Origin: Gammaproteobacteria bacterium
GTDB lineage: Bacteria > Pseudomonadota > Gammaproteobacteria > Pseudomonadales > Halieaceae
Assembly: GCA_024644535.1 (NCBI GenBank)
Contig: JAHEKX010000027.1
Span: forward strand, 20,037-84,036
Direction of reading: 5' to 3'
Length of the DNA stretch: 64,000 nucleotides
The translations under genes were made by a program, and so were the position numbers. Positions 1-15,690 of the stretch are shown one piece after another. The notes beneath the pieces were generated by a model, which saw only the letters and a list, made by a program, of their open reading frames with translations, did no database searches and was not told the origin of the DNA. Positions within the stretch are counted from its first letter, which is position 1; each line of letters starts with the position of its first letter.

Positions 1-903
1 AGGTCTTGATAACATGGTCTTCAAAAGATCGCTTAGTAAAGAGTGCTCGTGTGAAGGCATAGGGTATCGAGAATCTTGATTTTTATGCATGAATAAGACC
101 ACTACAAACATTGCAACAATTATAAATACGCTCAGGACAACAAGAGTCAAATAGAAAGGATATTGCTCAACGCCGCTAATTATGGGTTGGGCCTGCAACT
201 GTATGGGGGGATAAAATATTGGTGGCTGAGCTCGCATTCCGGTTGATACTGAATCGACTGATTGAGCGGATTGACTAACTGAGTGGTTTAAATGCGGAGC
301 TGATAGCATTCGCTGCACGATAGGCTCTTCTTTTGATTGCTCCTTGTTAGCCACGCTGATTTTTGGCAAATTGATTTCTTCTGGTAACGGATAGGCCGAC
401 GCCAATTTAGGCTGAGAAATCGCTGCAATTAATTTTTTTGACACTAACTGTGTGTCAATTACAGGCTTATAATTGACGGCTACTTCACCTGAATTTACTG
501 TCAATTCTACCGGGAAAATACGTCTATAGTTCTCAAACTTCACATCTAGAATAATGGCAAAGCTAGCCATGTCGACAAAACCCTTAGACTTAATCAGATA
601 GCGGCTAGTGCTCATTTTACGCACAATAACGCCATCCAAGAATGCAGGACGAATATAACCGAGGGCTTCGTAATCGACTTCAGACGCTACGCTAACACTT
701 AAAGGATCGGCGGTTGATGTCAAAAACTCAGCAACACCATATATCGGCTTACCTATTGTCGGAAAAATATTTAACCTTAGGTCTTGCGTTGCGCTCGCGC
801 ATTCGGCCCCCAATAATAGCAAGACTAGTAGCAGGCGAACTTTGAACAACCGCGCAGAAAAATTCGCGGCCTTTACTAATCCCTTATCCATATATTTGCT
901 CAT
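1..903 (-). CDS. FimV-like N-terminal domain membrane protein, partial (3' end outside window)
   Basis: An uninterrupted minus-strand frame runs from an ATG at 903 to the left edge, 301 residues, so the C-terminus is missing. Residues about 20-36 form a signal peptide (leucine run, then AECASA). Residues about 40-125 resemble the FimV N-terminal domain: an LRLN...GKPIYG strand, SVSVAS, an aromatic-rich segment with FLDG, a RYLIKS strand and FPVELTV. A low-complexity Ser/Gln/Pro linker follows, then a single membrane helix at about 246-266 (YLTLVVLSVFIIVAMFVVVL) and a short cytoplasmic stretch. FimV proteins organise the cell pole and type IV pili; here the role is inferred only. The start overlaps the 3' end of the giant adhesin gene by 20 bp; an alternative ATG at 891 overlaps that stop. 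This suggests co-expression with the adhesins. Confidence is high that it is a gene, moderate for the family. Confidence 0.65.
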   Translation of the reverse strand, partial: MSKYMDKGLVKAANFSARLFKVRLLLVLLLLGAECASATQDLRLNIFPTIGKPIYGVAEFLTSTADPLSVSVASEVDYEALGYIRPAFLDGVIVRKMSTSRYLIKSKGFVDMASFAIILDVKFENYRRIFPVELTVNSGEVAVNYKPVIDTQLVSKKLIAAISQPKLASAYPLPEEINLPKISVANKEQSKEEPIVQRMLSAPHLNHSVSQSAQSVDSVSTGMRAQPPIFYPPIQLQAQPIISGVEQYPFYLTLVVLSVFIIVAMFVVVLFMHKNQDSRYPMPSHEHSLLSDLLKTMLSRP

Positions 904-3900
904 CACTTTGAATGTTTGGTTGATCGTTGATGGTATTTGTCTGGGTGGAATCTAACCTTCCCAATATTTCACGTAAATCGTTGTCAAGCGCAGAGCCTTC
1001 ACTAACGTAAATTAGCTGATCTTGCGACAACTCTTGATCGTTAATGAAGATGTCAAAATCTGACTCATCAGTTAGATAATGCGATAAGTCAAGGATTGTA
1101 GTTTGTGACAAAAATGCCCAATCCATATTCGATTCCGGAAGGATTAGAATTTGCTCAAACTCATAAAACTTTTCAATTACCAGCGTTAACTCTTGACTGA
1201 TCGACTGTATAAAAGGGTTATGGCTCTCAGCTATTGCATCAATGGCTTGCTCAATTACTTTATCCAAATTTTCTTGGCTAAAATTTTCTGAGGGGTCGAG
1301 CATCGACAAGGTAGAGTTTATACCACCGGTTATGCTATCAAACGTGGAGAGCGCTGCGAGTATTAGCCCATGATGTTCATTAGCTGAAATACCGTCTGAA
1401 ACATCAAAATTTCGGTCTGTTATAACCTCGACTTCACTTTGTATCGCCTCAAGCCCAAACAACGAATATATTCTATGTGTAACCAGGCGATTGGCATCTT
1501 CCAGTGGGATCGAGGTATTAAATTCTGCAATACGTAATGCCAATTCGGTAAGCGGCGTCACAATTATCGGGGCTGTAGGTTGGACGTCGCGATAATCTAC
1601 TAGTGCACGCAAACCAAAACCGCCAGTGTTAAAGTCAAAGTCTTTTAACTGACCAGTAAACTCATCAAGATAATCTAGAGCAGGTGAACCATCTAAAATA
1701 TTTATAATTACCGGTCCGCTGAAGCCAAGTGGTATTAAATCATCGTATCTGACAATACTTTTGACAGGATCAAAGTCGGAGGTTCCCAGCAATTCACCTT
1801 CGAGATTATAGGCCCTCACAACCAATGCATCGGTGACAAATTCTCCGGCTGTTACCGTGATCCATCCATCGCCATTTGGGTTAACATACTCCGTGCCGTC
1901 TGTGTCAACGAGTGTCACTTTGTCGTAATTGTAATAGCCTTCAGCTGTGTTACCCGATAGAGATCCGGCAAGCTGGCTAAGCGTCACATCAAAGACAATA
2001 TTGGAACTATTCTGGAAGTTTTGTAACGAGATTTGCTCCCCACTATCAACGAGAAATTCTAGATTTTCAGATATCGTTTCTTCATCTCCAGAATTGAATG
2101 TCGCGAAGACTAAATCACTATCCAGTAATTTAACGTTAATGACTGTATTAGCAGGAATTATCAATGCTTCGCTATATGTCAGCGTAAAACGATCTGGCTC
2201 TAATTCAAGTTGGATTCGTTCAATACTCGGCTTTATATTGTTAAATTCCCACGCTCCACTCACGGAAAGTGGGGAGAATACGAGATCAGCGTTACCACCA
2301 GATCCTGACAAGCTAACACCCGAATCCAGACTAATCGACTGAACCTCAACCGATCCAGAAAAGTCGGTTTCTAACGGCTGCGTAACCGTAAAAATTAAAT
2401 TCCTGGCATCAGTTGGATCAATCGACTGGAGAGAGGCTGAATGACTTTTTGAAATGGCGTTGCCATCTGAGTCGACACCGGTCATCAAGAGCTGAAGGTC
2501 AACACCAGATATATCTGAAACAGACATAGCTCGATCGAACGTCACTCTCAGCGGTAATGTGGAACCCGTCAACGTCGTCACGTTCCATTCAGCACTCACC
2601 ACCTGAGCTGCGCCGACCGCCGAGTCTGAGACCGAAATAGTTATAGTTTTATCATTGTATTCACTACCATTAGCTGCTCTTAGGGTAAAATTGTATGCTG
2701 AGCTCGCGTTAGTTTCGTGATCCAAATTCTCGGTAATAGTGAGAGCGCCGGTCTCCTGATCTACAGAAAACGGCACTGAGTTGCTTCCTCCACTATTTTC
2801 CAATATTGAGTACTTGATATCCCCCGACACACCTGTGCCCAGTTCTGCAAGTGTCGGCTGGAAAGTGGTGCCTGCTAGTACCTCAGGGGTATCAATCAGC
2901 TCAAGTGGGCTGTCGTATTGAGGATTGTTTCCATCATCTATTACGTTGAGGAGCAGCGGCAAATCTTTTGGGGCCCCTTCCTCGTCAATCGCACGAATGC
3001 GGAACAATAATGCAGATATCGTTTCGTAATCTAACTCTACGCCGGTCTTAAATGTTAGATCCCAATACTCTGGGATGGCGGACTGCCTCGTGATATCGAA
3101 ATACTGATCTGCGCCATCCAGAAGAGTCAAAGCTACCAATGGGTCGTCAACCCCCAATATCCACGCGTAATCTGAGAGCTCCGTGTTTTCCTCGAGTGAG
3201 CCCAAGCTCAGGCGCATCTCTGACAACTCGATGCTTTCGAAAGCGCCAGTTATTGGATTTCTCGCCTGCAACGAAATAAAGTTCGCTGGCACACCGCTTT
3301 CATTGACGTCCACCCTAATAAATTGACTGGCAGATTTCCCACTGGCGCCAGTCGCTACTAACGTAAACGTGTAAACACTTTGGAAATCGTAGTCGGGAGA
3401 ACTATTTAGGGATACGCTACCCGTTGCAGGATCCACAGTAAGCAACTGAAAGTCACCTGTGCGCTCAAGCGAAAAAACAACGTCATCAGATAGATCTCGG
3501 GAAACGTTATCATCAAAAATATCGTCCACTGACCCAGGTATATATACTATTGCACCGTCCTCAGCATACTCTTCAACCGACCTTACCGCGTCATATTCTC
3601 CCTCTGCAGAGGGATCAGCCTGAAACACCGGAGCACTTTCATCTACGTTTCGTATACGTACAGTTATAGAAGCTGACGCTCCTATGTTCCCAGCAGAGTC
3701 AACCGCGTTGACCGTTAGGTTAATCGCCTTGACATCTTGATCAATCCGCAAATCTTCGCTCAGAGATTCAAAATCAAACTGCCAGAGACCACTAATCGCA
3801 TCCTGGCGAATACTAACGCCCCCTGTATCTGGGTTAATTCTGAAATACTGTTCATCACCGGAAGCCAGCTGGTACTGAACTGGAGAGGTATCGTCTGACT

Positions 3901-6900
3901 TAGAAATAAAGAAAAGTGAAGTTTGATACGGTTGATTTTCGAACAGATCCACCTGACCATCTACGATCGGATTGCCATCAACATCCAGGAAGACCGGTTC
4001 CGTTGGTGGTGTTGAATCGAAAGTGAGAACTCCCGTTTTCTCGGGCACATTAGCAATTACTTCGTTATTCTCGTTCAACATTCGAACTGTATAACTCAGA
4101 TTAGTATTATCTAGTTGCTCAGAAACTAGTGCAGGTAAAAGAGAAAGATCGAAAGACGACTCTCCAAGATAACCAGCGCCGGCCTCGCTGCCATCAATAT
4201 TTGAGATTAGCGGTGAATAGCCATCAAGGGTAAACTCGATTTTAGCACCTACCTCTGAAGCAAAACTGACGACTGTAAACTTGGCGTCGGGGCGGAGAAT
4301 GCTATCGCCAGAAATAATTCCTATAATAGACGGTCCAGCGCTATAATTTATTACTGTCAGAGCATCGAAAGAGGAATACTGAGGTAATTCATTACCCGCT
4401 AAGTCGCGTGCTACCAGCGAATCCAAGAAATATGAAGTCGGAATAATATCAGCATTTATGTCGTCAATTGTGGCACCCTGAAGTTCGAATCGGAGCTCAG
4501 AAGTGCCAAGCGCATTATCGGAAGGTACTACTAGAGTAGCCTGGTTAGGCTCTCCAATAAGGTTTGACAGTTGTATGAAACTAGCGTCGCTCTCATCGAG
4601 CGTTGTCCAATCTATCGCGGCACTAGAGTCAAGTATGGCGATGATCGTTAAATTTACCTTGCCATCATCACCTAAAGTAGAGCTCACAAACAATTCAGAG
4701 AAATATGGGATACTCTTGTCAACCGTATAGTTCCTTTCAAGAAACAGCGAAGTGGTATCTCCAACATTACCACTTACATCAATTTGATAGGCTCTAACCT
4801 GCTCCGATATGATTTGTCCTTCAGCCAATTCCACTGCCGTTAAATAGGTATTACCTGAGCGCGTCCAACCGCCTTGCGGGGCAAACTTGTCAATAAAGCT
4901 TACCCCTCCATCAAGCGAGTAACGAAGGATGGAGTATTTTTCTAGACCTGATATTTCCACAAGGTCAGAGCGAGTCACCCCATCAGTCGCTGATTCTCCA
5001 GTATCGCTAAGACCTAGCACCAAATCTGGGGGCCTAACAGTGTCGATCAGAGGATTGAAAAGGTCTAATAACTCCAAAGAATTTCCGGCTGGATCCAACA
5101 AAGCATCCAGAGGAACATTGGCGGAGCCGATGCCGGAAAAGTCATAATCAAGTTCGAATTCCACTGAAAAAAGTAATGGGTTTTGAGAATCGACGAGGGG
5201 CTCGGCCGAAAAGCTCAAGCCATTTATTAGAATTTCAGAAAAACTCGGAGGCCATGGATCTAATCGCTCCGAGAAAAGTATGTTGAGCAGATACATGTCC
5301 GCATTACTTTCCGTCAAGGTATCTGTTGTATCAATCCACAATTTGACGGTTGGGGGGACTAAGTCAATTGTTAAATCAGCCTGGCTATCAATAGATATTT
5401 CGGGGATTGATCCGATCACAGAAAAGCTAGCTGACTGCCCGGCCACAAAATCGGGCCACTCGCCTTCATCAGGGATATCGTTTAGTAAATCGATAGACCA
5501 AACGTTATCTATTACTCGAACATCGGTATATTTTGCAATTAACGTTTGTCCGTCTCGGATTTCTACATTCAACGTCTGGCCGGAGGATAACCAAGCCGCC
5601 CCAGTAATCAGAGGTGCTGCCGAATTAGAGATTATGGCGTTAACTTGCACGGTCTCATCAAGATCATTGACTGAAATTTGAATATTTTTTTCAACGTAAT
5701 TCCCCGCTAAGTCTGTCGCGTTTACCGTCAACGCATACTGGTCTTTACTCTCAAAATCTGGTGAATTATTAAAATAAATTTCTCCTGTTTGTTCATCAAT
5801 ATTCACATCGGCTGCATCTGCTCCACTAATCGAATAGGACACAGTACTTTCATCGGTAGCCGAAGCTTGATAAACCAGTGTGCTTACAGGGATATTTTCG
5901 TCGAAATTTAGCGTCACCGGGTCTTCATTAGATTCAAACACTGGGCTTGTAATATCAGGTAACTTGATATTTAACTCGTTAGTAGATTGGTCAATCGCAA
6001 ATTTTGTGCTGTCAAGTTCACTAATCGTCTTAGCTACAATTTCGTAAGTCGAATTATCGGAAAGCGTCGTTAGTGTGCCTTCGCTAGGCGTAGCTATTTC
6101 CAAATCTAAAGACCACGTACCGTCTTGTTGAACAGCTACTTCATAAGTGGCACCCGATACCGTTACAAATAACGCTTCATTTTCTGCGACGACAGCGGTT
6201 CCTGAAATCACAGGCAGTAGTGTATCCGCATCTAGCTCATTAACTATGGGTATATTAGGGACACTGACCGTATTCTCAACGACATCATTAATCGACAATT
6301 GAATTTCTTTGGAAGCGCTATTGCCGGCTAAGTCTGTGGCAACGACTGACAATATATAGCTGGATTTCACTTCATAGTTAGGTGAATTCCGGAATCGGAG
6401 TTCACCCGTGAGGCTATTAATCGAAAAATAAGTAGAATCTGCCCCAGTTATGCTATAACTCAACGAGCTGGAGTCATCCGCTACTTCTGCGCCCACGATC
6501 ATGGCAACTGGAATATTTTCATCGACGGCTATTTGGATAATATCTTCGTCAGATCTAAAGACCGGAGAGGTCGCATCAATAAAAATGGACAAACTCTTTG
6601 TGACTGTGGCATCTGATTCGAGCTTAGCCGCCATCGTGTAGCTGCCATCTGCGAAGGACTGAAAAACCCCAGAGGGTATGGAGAAAGATGCTTTGTTAGA
6701 AGCGACCTGCGTGGAGTAAGACAACGAATCAATGGTGAGTGTAATAGTTTCGCCATCAGCAATACCCACCGTATTAACGGTGACTAAGTTGGCAATATCA
6801 ACTTCTTCTGAATTAATTGCTGTGCCAAATGTTGTAGCGATTGAAGATATAAGTTGTAGAGATGACCCTTGGGAAGTATTAGAGCCTATGTTATTAATGG

Positions 6901-8779
6901 CTTCAATTAATGCTGTTACCAGTGCAAAATAGGCGACTTCATCAAGAGCAAGATCTGTATTGGATGAATCCGTGTTTTCTAAAACAGGTATCTCTACGTA
7001 AGACATGTAATTTGCAAGTTCATTGGCATGACTGTCTTTTACGTAAAGACTAAACTGCGCATCTGTACCATCGGCCAGCATGGCAATGATAGATGCTGGA
7101 ACTTGGATAGAGGTCACATCACCAACTATGCTAACTGGTCCTAACAACTGTCCTGCAAAATTCAAATGAAGTTTGTCACCTTCAGTAGTATTAGTTGTTA
7201 CCACTGTCATGGTTACCGAGGAACTATCATCAACAATAGGGCTCAGTTGCAAGCCCTCGATGCGGACATTTCTGCCGTCAGGACCCCCAGTACCTATATC
7301 ACCAAAGCTATCGTTGAAGATATAACTAGTATTCAAACTCTGTAACAACGTTCCTGTAGCGTCAATTGCCGACAACTGATACGGGATGGAGCCTGCGCCC
7401 AAGTTATCTATCAAAGCCTTCCCAAGAACAAAAGAAGCGTTACCCGAGGCGTCTACTCTTTGACTAAAAAGCTGACCATTTAATGAAAGCTGAATAATAT
7501 CGTTTTGGTCGAGATCAGTGGTCACACTCAACAACGTGTTATCCGGGTTTAGCGTAAAATATGCACTGAGAATATGAATTTTGTTTTCTGAACCATTGCC
7601 TTCTGTAACATCTTGATTGTACGTATTAGGTACGGAAATAAACGATTGGTAAGTATCCACCACCTTACCTTTTGTATCTTTTATTGTTACCGCGTATGGA
7701 ACGTCCGTACCTGAACTTAGAGTTTTCAGAACATTTTCAGGGACTGATATTGATGTAATCGAACCCAAAATGCTTACAGGACCAACAATACTCCCTGCGA
7801 CATTAAGATAAATTTTATCTCCCGACTCGGCATTCCGCGTGCTAACCGACAAGGTTAAAGAAGTGGTATCAGCTTTGATTAGAGGCAACTGTATACCGTC
7901 AATTATGGGATTCCTCTCATCCTCTTGATCTTCTCCATCGCTTTCTAAAGAAGATTTGAATACATACCGACCGCCAAGCTCCTCTAAGACGGAGCCATTT
8001 GCATCAATCGCCTTAATAATGTAAGGGGTTGAACCCTCGCTCAGCTGCCCTATCACAGTAACAGGGATATCAATTACCACCCTCCCATCTGTGCCCACCG
8101 CACTACTGTACACTTGGCCAGAAAGTTTCAGCTGAACAGAAGATCCCTGCCTTAAATCAGTTTCAATCTCAAGAAAAAATGGACTTTCAGGGCTGTCACT
8201 TTCTTTAATTACGGAGGATAAAATATGAACCTCATCAGTTCGTTCAGATGAACTCGTCGACAACCCGGTCGAAGTTGTTTCTGACGGCGTGGGCATGATT
8301 GTAGCTATGGTTGAACTATCACCATCCAAAGTTACACCAGCAAACAAGCCAGCCAATGCGGGAAACGCCCAAGCATACGAATCAGAATCTGGGAATGGCA
8401 AAATCGTAGCATTTGATCCTGAGTTGTAATAGGCAAAACCATCGCCATACTGCACGCTCACTAGTCCTTCGGTCGGCTTATAATCCTCAAAATATACCGA
8501 CGTCCCGCTGTCAAAACGCGCAATTTCCGTTGCTCGCTCAGGGTCATTACCGAAATACTCATAAAAGTAAATCGACGTGCCATCAGGTAACACTATTTCT
8601 AAATCATTACCTATTTTACGTCCCTCGGCCATAGGAATTGGACTCATTGAAGAACCATCGAGCAATGTATAGCTTGCACCATTCTTGGCAAGAAGCCCGC
8701 GCACAGTTGCAGCATCGAAAACCTTCGATTCTGAACCGATTTGCTCCCTAATAAGGATCTGCTTCTGATTTTCTTTCAT
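884..8779 (-). CDS. Giant cadherin/Ig-like repeat surface adhesin (2631 aa)
   Basis: A 2631-residue acidic, cysteine-poor protein built of beta-sandwich repeats. Residues 1 to about 130 form a BapA/T1SS-adhesin-like prefix domain (DLEIVLPDGTSIYFYEYF), followed by a hydrophobic Ala/Gly segment near 137-152. Residues about 185-600 hold two copies of a roughly 200-residue unit, each made of two subdomains (VHILSS/IHILSA and IIDGIQL/VRIEGLQL). Cadherin-like repeats follow at about 745-830 and 950-1035, with DENIPV, TGEL/TGEI, SPxxE and ATDLAGN motifs; more divergent repeats occur at about 1620-1790 and 1980-2050. Near residue 2410 there is a VTPLTELA motif, then a helical C-terminus. There is no Sec signal peptide and no obvious RTX nonapeptide array, although type I secreted adhesins often carry one. 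It lies 84 bp after the 646-residue gene and overlaps the FimV-like gene. The likely role is cell-surface adhesion or biofilm; the export route is unknown. Confidence 0.8.
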   Translation of the reverse strand: MKENQKQILIREQIGSESKVFDAATVRGLLAKNGASYTLLDGSSMSPIPMAEGRKIGNDLEIVLPDGTSIYFYEYFGNDPERATEIARFDSGTSVYFEDYKPTEGLVSVQYGDGFAYYNSGSNATILPFPDSDSYAWAFPALAGLFAGVTLDGDSSTIATIMPTPSETTSTGLSTSSSERTDEVHILSSVIKESDSPESPFFLEIETDLRQGSSVQLKLSGQVYSSAVGTDGRVVIDIPVTVIGQLSEGSTPYIIKAIDANGSVLEELGGRYVFKSSLESDGEDQEDERNPIIDGIQLPLIKADTTSLTLSVSTRNAESGDKIYLNVAGSIVGPVSILGSITSISVPENVLKTLSSGTDVPYAVTIKDTKGKVVDTYQSFISVPNTYNQDVTEGNGSENKIHILSAYFTLNPDNTLLSVTTDLDQNDIIQLSLNGQLFSQRVDASGNASFVLGKALIDNLGAGSIPYQLSAIDATGTLLQSLNTSYIFNDSFGDIGTGGPDGRNVRIEGLQLSPIVDDSSSVTMTVVTTNTTEGDKLHLNFAGQLLGPVSIVGDVTSIQVPASIIAMLADGTDAQFSLYVKDSHANELANYMSYVEIPVLENTDSSNTDLALDEVAYFALVTALIEAINNIGSNTSQGSSLQLISSIATTFGTAINSEEVDIANLVTVNTVGIADGETITLTIDSLSYSTQVASNKASFSIPSGVFQSFADGSYTMAAKLESDATVTKSLSIFIDATSPVFRSDEDIIQIAVDENIPVAMIVGAEVADDSSSLSYSITGADSTYFSINSLTGELRFRNSPNYEVKSSYILSVVATDLAGNSASKEIQLSINDVVENTVSVPNIPIVNELDADTLLPVISGTAVVAENEALFVTVSGATYEVAVQQDGTWSLDLEIATPSEGTLTTLSDNSTYEIVAKTISELDSTKFAIDQSTNELNIKLPDITSPVFESNEDPVTLNFDENIPVSTLVYQASATDESTVSYSISGADAADVNIDEQTGEIYFNNSPDFESKDQYALTVNATDLAGNYVEKNIQISVNDLDETVQVNAIISNSAAPLITGAAWLSSGQTLNVEIRDGQTLIAKYTDVRVIDNVWSIDLLNDIPDEGEWPDFVAGQSASFSVIGSIPEISIDSQADLTIDLVPPTVKLWIDTTDTLTESNADMYLLNILFSERLDPWPPSFSEILINGLSFSAEPLVDSQNPLLFSVEFELDYDFSGIGSANVPLDALLDPAGNSLELLDLFNPLIDTVRPPDLVLGLSDTGESATDGVTRSDLVEISGLEKYSILRYSLDGGVSFIDKFAPQGGWTRSGNTYLTAVELAEGQIISEQVRAYQIDVSGNVGDTTSLFLERNYTVDKSIPYFSELFVSSTLGDDGKVNLTIIAILDSSAAIDWTTLDESDASFIQLSNLIGEPNQATLVVPSDNALGTSELRFELQGATIDDINADIIPTSYFLDSLVARDLAGNELPQYSSFDALTVINYSAGPSIIGIISGDSILRPDAKFTVVSFASEVGAKIEFTLDGYSPLISNIDGSEAGAGYLGESSFDLSLLPALVSEQLDNTNLSYTVRMLNENNEVIANVPEKTGVLTFDSTPPTEPVFLDVDGNPIVDGQVDLFENQPYQTSLFFISKSDDTSPVQYQLASGDEQYFRINPDTGGVSIRQDAISGLWQFDFESLSEDLRIDQDVKAINLTVNAVDSAGNIGASASITVRIRNVDESAPVFQADPSAEGEYDAVRSVEEYAEDGAIVYIPGSVDDIFDDNVSRDLSDDVVFSLERTGDFQLLTVDPATGSVSLNSSPDYDFQSVYTFTLVATGASGKSASQFIRVDVNESGVPANFISLQARNPITGAFESIELSEMRLSLGSLEENTELSDYAWILGVDDPLVALTLLDGADQYFDITRQSAIPEYWDLTFKTGVELDYETISALLFRIRAIDEEGAPKDLPLLLNVIDDGNNPQYDSPLELIDTPEVLAGTTFQPTLAELGTGVSGDIKYSILENSGGSNSVPFSVDQETGALTITENLDHETNASSAYNFTLRAANGSEYNDKTITISVSDSAVGAAQVVSAEWNVTTLTGSTLPLRVTFDRAMSVSDISGVDLQLLMTGVDSDGNAISKSHSASLQSIDPTDARNLIFTVTQPLETDFSGSVEVQSISLDSGVSLSGSGGNADLVFSPLSVSGAWEFNNIKPSIERIQLELEPDRFTLTYSEALIIPANTVINVKLLDSDLVFATFNSGDEETISENLEFLVDSGEQISLQNFQNSSNIVFDVTLSQLAGSLSGNTAEGYYNYDKVTLVDTDGTEYVNPNGDGWITVTAGEFVTDALVVRAYNLEGELLGTSDFDPVKSIVRYDDLIPLGFSGPVIINILDGSPALDYLDEFTGQLKDFDFNTGGFGLRALVDYRDVQPTAPIIVTPLTELALRIAEFNTSIPLEDANRLVTHRIYSLFGLEAIQSEVEVITDRNFDVSDGISANEHHGLILAALSTFDSITGGINSTLSMLDPSENFSQENLDKVIEQAIDAIAESHNPFIQSISQELTLVIEKFYEFEQILILPESNMDWAFLSQTTILDLSHYLTDESDFDIFINDQELSQDQLIYVSEGSALDNDLREILGRLDSTQTNTINDQPNIQSDEQIYG

Positions 8780-8863
8780 ATTGCTGCCAAAACCTTAGTT
8801 TTTTGACTCACTAAAAGCTAAAAATGGCCCCCGTCAATCTGCGTTTTACTGCTGAATGTCTGT

Positions 8864-10804
8864 TTATCCCCATGTGACATACTCATCGGCACTGTGCTCG
8901 ACACTTGATTCATCGACAGCCTTAACTGTCACTGACCAATTCGGGTCAGTTACCTGCTCTTCAATTTCCGCTTCAATGGTCATAACACCAGCATCAATCT
9001 CTTGTTGAGTCGGAGAATCTGTGGCTACAACCTTCCCATCAATAATTAGATCGAAAGAGGAATCAGTATCGAACTCGTTGATTGCAATCTCTAATTCGAT
9101 AAAATCAACCGAGTTATCCAAATATCCGAGATCATTTTCATGCGCCGGATCTGTTTCGCTATCAAAATAACTGATCCCGTTTATCACCAGGTAATAAGGT
9201 TCATCATCGAATGCAGCTGTGCCAGCATCAACGTTTACAATATCTGATGTATCAGTGGAGAGGTCTGATGCCGTGATGTCCGTGATAGACGTCTCCTCAC
9301 TTACAGTCTCGGACATTCGGCCCAAAACATCCGTTAATGTAGCGCGGACATTCATTACCTCTCCGCCTGCAAAAACCCCATGTTTGGGTTCATATCGGCT
9401 GGTACCAGCTTCCTCATTACTAGCAGCAGAAAAGCTTGAAGCAAAGTCCAGTTCGCTCAAATCAACACCATCAAAACTAACAACGAAACTAGCACCTGTA
9501 TCAATAGTAAATGCGCCGCTGGAATCATCGATCATAATTAATGGTGACGCAGGCTCTCCTGGATCTAAAAAAGCTCTCTGCATTGAGGTTATTTCCTCGA
9601 AAGTCAGCGCGCCACTAATTCTATTGATCACCGGCAAGACGCTTGCAATTAATTCGGACGAAGCTTCTTCGTTTAATCCGATCATTAAGCCTTCCAAAAA
9701 CTCTTGATTGGCCAGATCAATATTCCTCTGCCCCTTTGAAAGATGCGTCGCTAGAAGTTCAATGAAGGTTTCCGCAGCAATTTCGTCCAACTGCGCGACT
9801 TCACCTGTTATTAACATCAAAGTAGATGACAGTTTTTGTAGTGCCAGATCCTCTTGAGAAGGCTCTAAGCGCAATGAATCAAATTGCTCTAGACTATCGT
9901 CCAACAAGTTTGTGCCAATTTCATAGGGCCAATTCCCGAGACCGACCGGAAAAGATGAGTCCAGGCCAGCTTCCCTTCGAGCCTCAGCAACAATTGACCA
10001 GTCCGTCTGAGCGTAGATTTTACTGGGTTCATAAGTTAGGAGTGTTTCACCGTCAGGAAGAGAAATCTCAAAAGCCGAGAGCAATTTCGCTTCAGCTTCT
10101 TCGATTGACAAGCCCGATTTATCTGCTATTTCAACCAAGACAGTTGTCAATGGGTTTATGACTGTCGAAGACGCTTTCGTCTTTAACGTCACCATATTGC
10201 TGGAACCAGTCGCCGTATTTACGCCTCCTTTAGCCACAATATTTAACCCCGTATTATTCGGATTATGCTGAAATGAGAATCTGCCGTCCTCCGACGTCAC
10301 AACTCCTTTCAACTCTTGTAGCGTTCCGTCTCCCTTTTCTAGATATAGCTGGGCTCCGGAAATCGGATCATCGACAACGACTCCGCCAGCATAAAACTGG
10401 GGGGCGGTCGAAGTTGAGTTCGAATTTGCTAGCAACGCTCCTCCTGCGGCTAAGAAACCATAGGAAAACAGGTTGTCATTTGAGGAACTGCTATCAGCCC
10501 CATCATCACTCTGTGACTGCCCGACCTGAGCGATCGGTAGTTCAATGTGGTCAGCAATAGCATTTTGTAATGCAGCGAGAATCTCTTCATAGCTATCTAG
10601 ACCATTGAGCTTTGCTGCCATACCTCGCAATCTTATAATTCGGCCATCATTCAGTTGAATCCGTACGTCCCGGCCGTAGTATGTTATGAGTGCCTCATCA
10701 ATAAGATCAGGGTAGATTTTACTTAATTCACTTAGCGCACTCCCCATCTGATCGGTCTGATTATCACCTGACCACAACTTTTTATACTTGTTCAATATTT
10801 CCAT
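8864..10804 (-). CDS. Secreted/surface protein with adhesin prefix and PLTTL domain (646 aa)
   Basis: The start is set at ATG 10804 (MEILNKYKKLW). An upstream in-frame GTG at 10891 lies between the -35 and -10 elements of a strong promoter candidate and is unlikely to be translated. The N-terminus resembles that of the downstream giant adhesin: an amphipathic segment, a RIQLNDGRIIRLRG strand pair, a Ser/Asp-rich linker and a hydrophobic Gly/Ala segment (FSYGFLAAGGALLA, about residues 112-126). Next is a carboxypeptidase-regulatory-like beta fold (VVVDDPISGAQLYL...GRFSF) and the INPLTTVL motif at about 216-223, with a helical region after it. The acidic C-terminal half has Ig-like strands. No enzyme motif was seen. 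It may be a smaller companion adhesin or surface scaffold, first gene of the three-gene unit. The function is inferred from architecture only. Confidence 0.7.
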   Translation of the reverse strand: MEILNKYKKLWSGDNQTDQMGSALSELSKIYPDLIDEALITYYGRDVRIQLNDGRIIRLRGMAAKLNGLDSYEEILAALQNAIADHIELPIAQVGQSQSDDGADSSSSNDNLFSYGFLAAGGALLANSNSTSTAPQFYAGGVVVDDPISGAQLYLEKGDGTLQELKGVVTSEDGRFSFQHNPNNTGLNIVAKGGVNTATGSSNMVTLKTKASSTVINPLTTVLVEIADKSGLSIEEAEAKLLSAFEISLPDGETLLTYEPSKIYAQTDWSIVAEARREAGLDSSFPVGLGNWPYEIGTNLLDDSLEQFDSLRLEPSQEDLALQKLSSTLMLITGEVAQLDEIAAETFIELLATHLSKGQRNIDLANQEFLEGLMIGLNEEASSELIASVLPVINRISGALTFEEITSMQRAFLDPGEPASPLIMIDDSSGAFTIDTGASFVVSFDGVDLSELDFASSFSAASNEEAGTSRYEPKHGVFAGGEVMNVRATLTDVLGRMSETVSEETSITDITASDLSTDTSDIVNVDAGTAAFDDEPYYLVINGISYFDSETDPAHENDLGYLDNSVDFIELEIAINEFDTDSSFDLIIDGKVVATDSPTQQEIDAGVMTIEAEIEEQVTDPNWSVTVKAVDESSVEHSADEYVTWG

Positions 10805-10881
10805 ATCATCACCGTTATCATATTTGACAGAAACGCCTACCGCAACGAGGCGGAAAGCGACAAAAACGCCAATTAAAGACG

Positions 10882-10910
10882 ATATTGTCACAATGTGACT
10901 AAAGTGTCAA
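10882..10910 (-). promoter_or_regulatory. Sigma70-type promoter for the adhesin unit
   Basis: On the minus strand a perfect -35 TTGACA (10910-10905) is followed by a 17-bp spacer and a -10-like CAATAT (10887-10882). It lies about 80 bp upstream of ATG 10804. The spacer carries a perfect 13-bp palindrome. The -10 is a weak match, so activation by a bound regulator is possible (inference). Confidence 0.5.
10887..10899. repeat. Perfect palindrome GTCACAATGTGAC in the adhesin promoter
   Basis: Two 6-bp arms (GTCACA/TGTGAC) flank one A, located between the -35 and -10 elements. It is a plausible operator for a dimeric regulator. A second inverted repeat with the related half-site TGACA lies at 10931-10944. 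Confidence 0.5.
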
Positions 10911-10930
10911 CACTACACCCCGCGCGATCC

Positions 10931-10944
10931 TGACATTATTGTCA
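10931..10944. repeat. Inverted repeat TGACA-TTAT-TGTCA upstream of the adhesin promoter
   Basis: Five-bp arms around TTAT, 21-34 bp upstream of the -35 element of the minus-strand promoter. It shares the TGTCA half-site with the palindrome inside the promoter, which suggests a two-site operator. No regulator gene is adjacent. Confidence 0.35.
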
Positions 10945-11584
10945 AAAGTCACAACGGCGACTGATATCACCCTTGCTGAAATCGCTAGTTCGAGCGATTT
11001 TAAAAGCGGATCAGCTTATGATGTTTGTCGAAGCCAAACTTACCCACTGACACCCTATTTGGTATTTCGATGACTTAATGCCGGCCTAGGATTATCGGGC
11101 CATCACCAGCTACTCAAGAATGTATGAAACTAATTGCTAGAATCAAAAGCTTTGCAGATTTCGGTAGGATTTAAACCCGGAACCGCACATCTCTGGTGTT
11201 ATCCGAGAACAAAAGAAGTGGAAATTCTCTTTCAACAATATAAACAGAAGAATTCGTGAAAATTTTTGGTTACGGTGGGAGATCATTTTACCAATCAAAC
11301 AACACTGGAAAAAAAGTATCTTTGATATCACACGTTTTAGGTCATACCCGAGAAAAAAAGGTGGTAGAGGTTTGTTTGCGCTTGGTGAAGATAGGCCTCA
11401 TGTTAGCCTGATCCACAAGCCCTTAAGGCCGCCTAATGGTAACACCCGGTTCTTGCAATCACATCAACTTACCTAAAAAGGAAGGACCGCCTGCACTGGG
11501 GCTAGCCGATGAACGACGAAAATCTATGGTTTTCGGCCGGAGGGGCCAAACATACCCTGCCGTTCCCACCAATCAAAAACAAAG
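10945..11584. other. Long gene-free interval
   Basis: About 640 bp with no convincing gene. It contains an 8-bp hairpin at 10979-11000 and a smaller one at about 11517-11536 (CGAAAA/TTTTCG). Short frames at 11143-11331 (minus) and 11436-11654 (plus) lack a ribosome site and family features. A tRNA-T-arm-like string near 11160-11180 does not fold into a tRNA. The stretch probably holds upstream control DNA of the adhesin unit plus decayed sequence. Confidence 0.5.
10979..11000. repeat. 8-bp hairpin of unknown role
   Basis: Arms AAATCGCT and AGCGATTT pair perfectly around a 6-nt loop AGTTCG. No T-tract follows on either strand, so a standard terminator is unlikely. It sits in the gap upstream of the adhesin promoter. 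Confidence 0.4.
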
Positions 11585-11609
11585 AAGGGCTACACTCGGT
11601 GCAGCCCTT
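11585..11609 (-). terminator. Rho-independent terminator after the TonB receptor remnant
   Basis: On the minus strand AAGGGCTGCA and TGTAGCCCTT pair with one mismatch around CCGAG, followed by CTTTGTTTTTG. It begins about 40 bp after the receptor stop codon. Confidence 0.7.
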
Positions 11610-11650
11610 TCAAAAACGCTCTCAAATAATCGGGAGCAGTTGATAGCAAC

Positions 11651-13198
11651 TTAGAAAGTATACTCTACTCCAATCGTGTAGTTCTTACCGTAGATGTCGT
11701 ACTGCGACAACTGACTTTTATTACCCCAATAGTAGTACTCGGGACGATTGTTCAAGTTGGCAGCCTCAAAGCGAGCAGTCAGGTTTTCGTTCACTTTATA
11801 TTTCGCGACCAAATCAAACTGCATGAAAGGCGCCACCCAACGGGTGTTATTGTTGCTGACGTTACCGATGTCGCCATCCTCATCGGCTAACCAATCGATG
11901 TAGTCACTGCGATAGTTACCTGCTAAGCGCACGTCCCATGGGCCTTTGTCATACCCGACGCTGATGTTGGCGGCTTTTTCCGCCAACTTGCGGAAAGGGG
12001 TTTTAAATACGGAGTTGTCTTCAAACTTGAATTCACTCTCGCTATCGGTAAAGGTCAAGTTCGCAGCCAGGTACAAACCGTTATCCCAACCGTATTGACC
12101 GTTCAACTCCAAACCATTGATGTATGAATCACCTGAGTTGATCCATGTTTCAACACCATCGTTGAAAGCAATATCGTTAATGGTCGCGACTTTCTGCAGA
12201 GTCGGATAGATCGCGTTCTTAATATCTTTTCTGAAGAGTCCAATCGCCGCATAGGCCATATCGTCGCCGTAGTACTCAAGACTCAAGTCAAAGTTTGTAG
12301 CTTCGTAAGGCTTAAGATCTGGGTTGCCTACGCTGCCGCTCACATCACCGGCGGTGCCATAGTTTACCGAGGTAATTGGCGCTGTCTGAGTGAATCCAGG
12401 ACGACTTAAGCCGCGCCAAATTGCCGCACGTAATTGCACTTGATCGTTAATAAAGTATTTTACCGTGACGCTTGGAGACCAAAAACCATAACTCTTGTCC
12501 GACGAAGTACGGTTACCATCTTGGTCATAAGCTTTGCTGTCTGTTTTGGTGTGCTCATAGCGCACACCCGCAATCACAACCGCATTTTCAAGTTCAATAG
12601 TATCTTGAACATATACTGCGCTAATGTCTTCATCAGTGGTGAAATCGCGGCTGATCGCGTCTTCAAAATCCACATCCATCTGCGCGACTTGGTTGCGCAT
12701 TGCATAAACCGTAGCGCCGCTGACGTGGTTACCGAACACTTGGTTGGCAAAGAACCAGTCGTTAACAGTACCCGAATCCCAATCCGCCATCGTAGCGCCA
12801 TCCCAGGTGTAACCGATAATATAGTCGTTTACATCTTTCGTGCGCGAACGCGTTTTAAAGCCCGCTTTTACAAGACCCATTGACGTTTCTTTTTCAGCAT
12901 TGAATTCAAAGCTTAATTCTTCGTCGTCGCTGATATTGGCCCACATCTCAATGGCGTCAAACTCTAAGTTGGCCGGATCACGCAAAGTTGCGTCGTAAGC
13001 AACCAGATACGGCCGCTTCGGGTTTGTCCAGTATATTTCACCGCCAAGGGCCTTATCGTCATTGCGGAAGGTCACATCCGCGTTGTCGCTGTCATCTTCT
13101 TGCGCCCAGCTATCGCCAATCTAGTCGTGCAACATGAATGTGCCTTGGTCCGTTTCCAGCTCTAAGTTCGGCATGACTTCGTTTATACGTATTCCCAT
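11651..13198 (-). pseudogene. TonB-dependent receptor remnant: barrel only, in-frame amber codon
   Basis: The 474-residue open segment (13075-11651) is a TonB-dependent receptor beta-barrel. It has alternating aromatic strands, RGLSRPGF, a GNPDLKPYEATNFDLSLEYY motif typical of these receptors, and a terminal TF with C-terminal Phe as in outer-membrane barrels. There is no signal peptide, TonB box or plug domain, and intact family members are usually 700-1000 residues. The same frame extends upstream to an ATG at 13198, preceded by AGAGG at good spacing. It is interrupted by TAG at 13123-13121, 25 codons in, between LHD and IGDSW; a Trp codon mutated to TAG is the simplest explanation. It is followed by a good terminator. 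The protein would have imported a large substrate across the outer membrane. It is most likely a pseudogene, truncated at the 5' end. Readthrough or sequence error cannot be excluded. Confidence 0.75.
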
Positions 13199-13363
13199 AC
13201 TATCTACCTCTAGAATGAATCACACAACGGCCAATCCATTGCACTTAAGAAAGTATGCACCCAGCACACACGCTTTTATATTAAATAAAACTAATTTACT
13301 TAATCGATAAAACCGATAGCAAAAAAATGCTAAGCTGATCGGGTGTTTATTAAACGCTTTTTT

Positions 13364-13984
13364 ATGAATTATCTCGCACACACCGCTCTTAGCCCAGCAC
13401 AGCCCCAAGCGCTGATTGGGAATTTACTTGGCGATTTCATGAAAGGGGTAGACCCTAAAGCTTTGTATCCTGACATACGTGCTGGCTTAGCTAATCATCG
13501 CAAAGTTGACGCCACGACAGACCAACATACCGACGTACTTAATTTAAAGCCTCTTTTACAACACCATATTCGACGCTTTGCCGGAGTCGCTATTGACATC
13601 TATTTTGACTTTTTGCTCTGCAAACACTGGGATCGTTACTACGCCTTGCCCTTAGATGACTTTATCCGCCAAACGTATAGGTTGATCGATAGCGCGCGCC
13701 ATTTGGTTCCCAGTGAACCCATGCGGTTTGCGCTTGGCCGCATGACTTCCCAAAACTGGTTTGCAGCTTACCGCGACGAGGACATGATTTTCAGAGTCAT
13801 CGACCGGGCAGCTCAGAGAGTACGCTATCGCAACAGATTTGGGGATTCTATTGCCGACATTGAACGCAACCGATTCGATATAGAGCAAGCATTTTTAAAA
13901 CTTTACCCCGAACTGATGATGATTACCGGACAGAGGTCAAAACAAGCTATTAAAAACCTAGCGACTTATCTTCATGTATCGTAG
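13364..13984 (+). CDS. acpH: Acyl carrier protein phosphodiesterase (AcpH, DUF479)
   Basis: 206 residues from ATG 13364 (MNYLAHTAL). The GTG at 13343 would add seven residues not expected in the family, so the later start is chosen. AcpH removes the phosphopantetheine arm from holo-ACP, giving apo-ACP in the cytoplasm. Family marks are the N-terminal MNYLAH, a GNLLGDFMKG segment supplying metal-binding acidic residues, a DATTDQHT segment and a helical body with DIYFDFLLCKHW and RMTSQNWF. The length matches the family. It is divergent from the receptor remnant and shares a 165-bp gap with it. No operon partner is evident. Confidence 0.8.
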   Translation: MNYLAHTALSPAQPQALIGNLLGDFMKGVDPKALYPDIRAGLANHRKVDATTDQHTDVLNLKPLLQHHIRRFAGVAIDIYFDFLLCKHWDRYYALPLDDFIRQTYRLIDSARHLVPSEPMRFALGRMTSQNWFAAYRDEDMIFRVIDRAAQRVRYRNRFGDSIADIERNRFDIEQAFLKLYPELMMITGQRSKQAIKNLATYLHVS

Positions 13985-13995
13985 GGCACGAACCT

Positions 13996-14271
13996 ATGTA
14001 TCTTTCCAGACACATTGCTCACCCCCTAGCCGTCGCAACTTTATTATTAATTGCACCTTCAAACGCTGCCTGTAATGCAATACCTGTGTCAGAGCAGATG
14101 ACTTAATCAACACAATCTGGCATTCATGTTGATTGGTGCGAGCATCGCATAGATGACGAGAGTAAGCAGCTACCCCAGCCGGACATTAACGGGCGAGAAC
14201 ACTACACCGACCGTTTCAGCACAGTGCCCCCCAATAAAAAAGAACAAGTCCAGACGCTAAAGAACCACTAG
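13996..14271 (+). pseudogene. Small secreted-protein ORF interrupted by TAA
   Basis: From ATG 13996 the frame encodes a signal-peptide-like start (HPLAVATLLLIAPSNAAC) and meets TAA at 14104-14106 after 36 codons. It then stays open in the same frame to TAG at 14271 (92 codons in all). The second part reads like a small hydrophilic protein (VDWCEHRIDDESKQL, NGREHYTDRF). No strong ribosome site is visible. It begins 12 bp after acpH. It could be a decayed small exported protein or chance openness; no family is recognised. Confidence 0.35.
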
Positions 14272-15337: not shown

Positions 15338-15690
15338 GATATCTCTCGCTTACAAACAGGGTGGTTAAACATACGCGATACAATGAGTGGGCTCAAGCCA
15401 CATCACCCTGACAGTAAATAGTAGCATCTGCCGCATAGGTCGATCGTGGCTATTTTGAAGAAAACCATAAACGGCTGACTGGGGCAATCAAGCCTTAAAA
15501 TCGTGCAGGATTGTGCTCTATTTCTGCTGTACAGTCTCGGGAATAGATCACCCACCAGCTTCAAGCAATGGCCATGAATACCGAATGCTCATTTGACCCA
15601 GTGCGTCGTGAGGTCGATAATCGCACCCGCATTCCGACACACCCATGATGCGGTACTTAGCTATCCCCATAGCGCATGCAAGGAAAAATG
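15338..15690. other. Intergenic region between divergent adh and MATE genes
   Basis: About 350 bp between two divergent genes, so it should carry both promoters. No strong sigma70 pair, operator or RNA structure was recognised. Only frames of under 30 codons occur. Confidence 0.4.

Follow-up and report, generated by a model that had tools for sequence, protein, structure and literature searches.

The minus strand of the window (the whole stretch of 64,000 nucleotides analysed here) carries a reading frame in which the start of a 1-Cys-type peroxiredoxin gene runs into the back half of a TonB-dependent receptor gene, close to an intact acpH-like gene on the plus strand (Table 1). The only in-frame TAG of this frame is followed by 489 open codons, which confirms the observation of the sequence-only reading that the frame is intact on both sides of a single amber codon. 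The same reading had placed a good ribosome site 25 codons upstream of the TAG; a site with its start at that distance is indeed present, as a Shine-Dalgarno-like AGAGGT judged by eye from the leaders of the window and of G004. G004 is a complete, single-contig genome of the same genus, and L022 denotes its stretch that was compared with the window; the genome containing the window (G000) amounts to 2.49 Mb in 28 contigs with a completeness of 97.4%.

Table 1 Positions of the fused frame, its parts and adjoining features in the window
Feature	Position	Strand	Remarks
Fused frame	13198-11651	minus	ATG 13198 to TAA 11651; 515 codons before the final stop
Shine-Dalgarno-like AGAGGT of the former peroxiredoxin gene	13206-13211	minus	leader also in G004
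1-Cys-type (AhpC/TSA family) peroxiredoxin remnant	13112-13198	minus	codons 1-29; G004 match
Amber codon TAG	13121-13123	minus	codon 26 of the frame and of the peroxiredoxin; TGG (Trp) in G004
Deletion junction, 8-bp AGCTGGGC	13104-13111	minus	overlap of blastn pieces; pairwise alignments
TIGR01782-type TonB-dependent receptor remnant	11651-13108	minus	C-terminal 485 codons and stop, equal to G004 residues 386-870
Terminator-like hairpin	11585-11609	minus	3' of the receptor stop; 11-pair stem, then T-rich run; consensus match only
acpH-like acyl carrier protein phosphodiesterase, intact	13343-13984	plus	PF04336, E 2.4e-54

The receptor remnant shares 95% amino acid identity with the intact receptor of G004, an ORF of 870 aa. 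Its barrel matches PF00593 (E 5.2e-47, profile positions 26-436 of 436), and against TIGR01782 (TonB-Xanth-Caul) the remnant aligns from profile position 377 to the last, 868, with 256.8 bits where the cut-off, which the G004 receptor protein passes, is 310 bits. The plug domain PF07715, located at residues 94-197 of the G004 receptor, was not found by Pfam in the window piece, and no export signal peptide occurs in the fused frame, whose start consists of peroxiredoxin codons; the G004 receptor has what looks by eye like a leader, from residue 40 (MKHTNRWALAPMVMAIYSANLAYAQ). The earlier statement that signal and plug domain are absent stands; within the receptor remnant Pfam gives barrel families only. 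The window's genome has 26 PF00593 matches, and this one lies in the shortest open frame, 489 aa after the TAG, the frames of the others spanning 543-1066 aa. The nearest named receptors (826-831 aa) are those of L053 and L054, both from MAGs filed as Pseudomonadales, and of L055 (HTCC2207). A search of solved structures with the G004 receptor returned two sequences, both of the colicin I receptor (E 1e-9), and a structure predicted for the receptor of L053 with an alignment of four rows reached a mean pLDDT of 29.5 and was discarded. The terminator-like hairpin beyond the receptor stop lies within the stretch that is also present in G004, synteny with which ends at about window position 11493. 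The adjacent 0.6 kb (10892-11500) contain no long ORF and are absent from the nine other genomes searched; further along on the minus strand follow a 675-aa ORF (8864-10891) with no Pfam or NCBIfam match and, adjoining it, a protein of 2631 aa with cadherin and Ca_tandemer repeats (884-8779) that is likely an adhesin.

The front of the frame belongs to a different gene, and the N-terminus of the G004 receptor bears no resemblance to these first 29 codons. Residues 1-29 are identical to the start of the G004 peroxiredoxin except at codon 26, and over codons 1-31 the two sequences differ by seven synonymous changes and one nonsense change (TGG to TAG). The intact G004 protein comprises 217 aa, encoded on the minus strand of L022 from position 5083, and matches PF00578 (E 3e-26) and PF10417 (E 1.3e-5); its homologues share 81% identity in G001 (residues 1-216) and 84% in G003 (residues 1-166, ended by a contig end). 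When the G004 peroxiredoxin was searched in the window's genome, it retrieved a 32-residue remnant (97% identity, with one TAG), which represents the N-terminal AhpC/TSA sequence of the 1-Cys peroxiredoxin, and paralogues at 33% and 26%; a Pfam search with the 29-aa remnant piece alone gave no match. The active-site cysteine region, for which we take the stretch PVCTTEF of the G004 protein as the marker, and the C-terminal domain PF10417 are deleted at the window locus. The genome retains another PF10417 peroxiredoxin, its one match to that family, on contig C20. Judged by alignment, the first 29 codons of the frame are not receptor sequence, and the residue opposite the TAG in the aligned G004 homologue is a tryptophan of the peroxiredoxin. 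The amber codon is no feature of the receptor, contrary to its description as a TonB receptor with an amber codon, and the ribosome site is that of the peroxiredoxin gene.

Gene order in G004 explains how the two parts came to be neighbours: acpH (plus), peroxiredoxin (minus), a phosphatase-like gene (plus) and the receptor (minus), an order that the window reproduces minus 3,109 bp, with acpH adjoining the peroxiredoxin or its remnant in both and serving as the synteny anchor. Blastn of the window against L022 returned two colinear pieces (11493-13111 and 13104-13919), which overlap by 8 bp. This octamer, AGCTGGGC, is common to both parent genes, in which it encodes Ser-Trp-Ala in the same frame. 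Breakpoint pairs drawn at random within both genes shared at least 8 bp in only 0.015% of 200,000 trials, which speaks for a repeat-mediated rather than a blunt deletion. At the DNA level, nothing in the window's genome matches the inner 3,101 bp of G004, so relocation of the missing piece within that genome was rejected, and protein searches for the segment found only paralogues at 37% identity or less, plus the remnant itself. Two further stretches of L022 (5805-7396, covering most of a 528-aa ORF, and 8549-11850) are without blastn counterpart near window positions 13920-14200 and 15353-15400; together with the 3.1-kb deletion they fit the smaller size of this genome (2.49 vs. about 3.1 Mb), although the polarity of these two gaps could be either way.

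With high confidence, we interpret the fused ORF as a deletion-fusion pseudogene made of the peroxiredoxin start and the receptor back half, which also carries a nonsense mutation. Both colinear intact parent genes in a relative and deletion ends bearing a short repeat, as such an origin calls for, are found here. A single deletion between the 8-bp direct repeats, by slippage or microhomology-mediated joining, would have taken most of the peroxiredoxin, the intervening DNA and the signal, plug and front of the receptor; signal and plug would be missing because this loss of about 3.1 kb removed both along with most of the peroxiredoxin. The joined frame would have stayed open by accident, since both genes read the repeat in the same frame. 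The nonsense mutation in the peroxiredoxin part, arising before or after the deletion, would end translation after 25 codons, so that neither gene would yield a working product. An artefact, either a misjoined contig with the source genes intact or a base error at the TAG, appears improbable to us. The window locus is known from one assembly of 28 contigs and the undeleted order is seen in just one congener, G004, but a search of a genome that is 97.4% complete did not turn up the missing segment, and the join falls at an 8-bp repeat between near neighbours of G004 in their native order and orientation, whereas a chimaera would more likely link unrelated places. An 8-bp repeat is also shorter than the k-mers usually employed in assembly.

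Comparison with homologues sets the direction of change. Searching 57 other genomes gave 18 non-self matches with E < 1e-30, each in an open frame of at least 738 aa. The sequence-only reading had named intact homologues of the same short form in relatives as a refuting observation; none of these 18 strong matches is short, and a conserved short receptor form was rejected on that basis. Three weak matches (26-31% identity) do occupy short frames, of 250 aa in G020 (E 8.5e-7), 423 aa in G038 (E 6e-4) and 227 aa in G046 (E 3.1e-4; C22:227784-228272, a frame with one TAG), and could represent contig ends or further disrupted paralogues. We give next to no credence to the converse scenario, in which the short form of the receptor came first and G004 acquired the middle segment. 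It draws on the lack of a match to the phosphatase-like gene in G000-G003, of which G001-G003 are only 73-89% complete, but no break at the junction point is seen in the G001 and G003 peroxiredoxins or in the receptors from L053, L054 and L055, all of which run on into sequence that is absent from the window. On this sequence comparison the window represents the derived state, because an insertion in G004 could not create matching halves of two conserved genes.

The length of the open frame after the TAG raises the question of readthrough, which the sequence-only reading had offered as one of two possibilities. In the fullest version of this idea, the fused gene keeps its peroxiredoxin leader, ribosomes read through the TAG or initiate internally, and the resulting plugless barrel protein would retain some role. 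The 489 open codons after the TAG and the lack of relaxed selection relative to G004 speak for it, and a retained role, if true, would explain the latter. Against it, the frame lacks both signal peptide and plug, strong matches in short form number 0 of 18, and a promoter scan of 11400-13400 gave no sigma-70-like site, where 2.8 would be expected by chance. TAG is moreover the terminator of 13 of the 53 counted ORFs of the window, a set obtained from 62 mechanical ORFs by removing by hand nine that overlap on either strand and in which the fused fragment is included. The PylS family gives three weak matches in the window's genome, none passing the cut-off; among 14 control genomes, 13 also match PylS_Cterm, one over the cut-off. 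A tRNA scan, covering the window, detected one gene, tRNA-Ser(tga). Amber recoding of the receptor is rejected, as the TAG lies outside receptor sequence and no PylS match exceeds the cut-off. It is very unlikely that readthrough yields a working product, and functional translation of the barrel, whether past the TAG or internally started, strikes us as barely credible; the readthrough suggestion gains no positive support, with no short form among the strong matches, no PylS over the cut-off, TAG ending 13 of the 53 ORFs and no signal or plug in the product. Its companion suggestion, a recent pseudogene, is the one that the data support: the fused ORF is ordinary gene decay, and probably recent.

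Substitution patterns constrain the age of this decay. Between the receptor fragment and G004, dS is 1.17 and dN 0.023 (dN/dS 0.020), no indel separates the two, the fused frame holds one stop only, and no relaxed selection relative to G004 is seen. Counted over alignment columns free of gaps, changes unique to the window and to G004 number, with L053 as outgroup, 10 vs. 9 amino acid and 58 vs. 58 synonymous changes; with L054, 7 vs. 9 and 45 vs. 46; with L055, 7 vs. 8 and 39 vs. 46. Among sites invariant in the other four sequences, three are changed in the window and two in G004. Neutral decay along the whole branch would predict about 617 nonsynonymous changes and 34 stops, and the count leaves room for a selection-free share of the branch of no more than about 1.3% (background 9) or 2% (background 5), a bound that is rough because dS is near saturation. 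The absence of indels, the single stop and the lack of relaxation would also fit continued constraint, a reading that nothing else backs, and absence of relaxation is expected equally if the deletion is recent. Under the deletion-fusion interpretation, the lack of relaxed selection on the receptor fragment points to a gene loss that probably happened very recently, within about the last 1-2% of the branch at most by this rough bound.

The lost receptor probably served the uptake of organic phosphorus, because its relatives sit beside a phytase gene or near an alkaline phosphatase gene. In HTCC2207 (L055) the receptor relative is followed by a phytase (PF02333), and in L053 the receptor adjoins a phosphatase-like gene, near an alkaline phosphatase (PF00245). 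A published account assigns HTCC2207 to the SAR92 clade and, from genome context, names a phytic acid transporter for it (PMC3400609), which may be the same gene as the L055 receptor. The phosphatase-like gene is divergent to the receptor in both L022 (3240-4307, plus strand, 355 aa) and L053 (2206-3237, 343 aa), the two proteins being 61% alike, and its motifs resemble, by eye, those of calcineurin-type phosphatases. The G004 gene has no Pfam or NCBIfam match and the L053 counterpart no Pfam match; they may constitute an unmodelled phosphatase family linked to the receptor. Using a Pho-box consensus with up to three mismatches, we found 13 matches in L055 against 5.2 expected, a number reached in 0 of 100 shuffles, including two overlapping sites at 8907-8934, 44-71 bases upstream of the HTCC2207 receptor start. 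L053 has one match (2.2 expected), before the receptor at 3280-3296, and L022 of G004 has seven (4.5 expected), none of them in the receptor-phosphatase gap at 3040-3239, so the Pho-box signal is suggestive for L055 only. Loss of the receptor may narrow the phosphorus diet of the organism.

More broadly, the locus illustrates how a single deletion between short repeats can cost a bacterium with a 2.5-Mb genome both a nutrient receptor and an antioxidant gene, and how the resulting scar can mimic a recoded gene. A literature search found no paper on a fused TonB receptor pseudogene. Relative to the intact 1-Cys-type peroxiredoxin of G004 (PF00578 and PF10417), the window retains codons 1-29 and the leader, but its copy stops at codon 26 and the remainder of the gene is deleted. 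The receptor remnant aligns over its full length with the receptors of G004, L053, L054 and L055 at 95%, 82%, 62% and 61%, respectively, and ends at the same C-terminus, whereas in comparison with TIGR01782 receptors it lacks the signal, the plug and the front part. Deletions between short direct repeats can leave fused pseudogenes. With such deletions the window shares the repeat at the ends, the single copy left behind and the joining of both remnants, and it is unusual solely in that the frame was kept open over the join.
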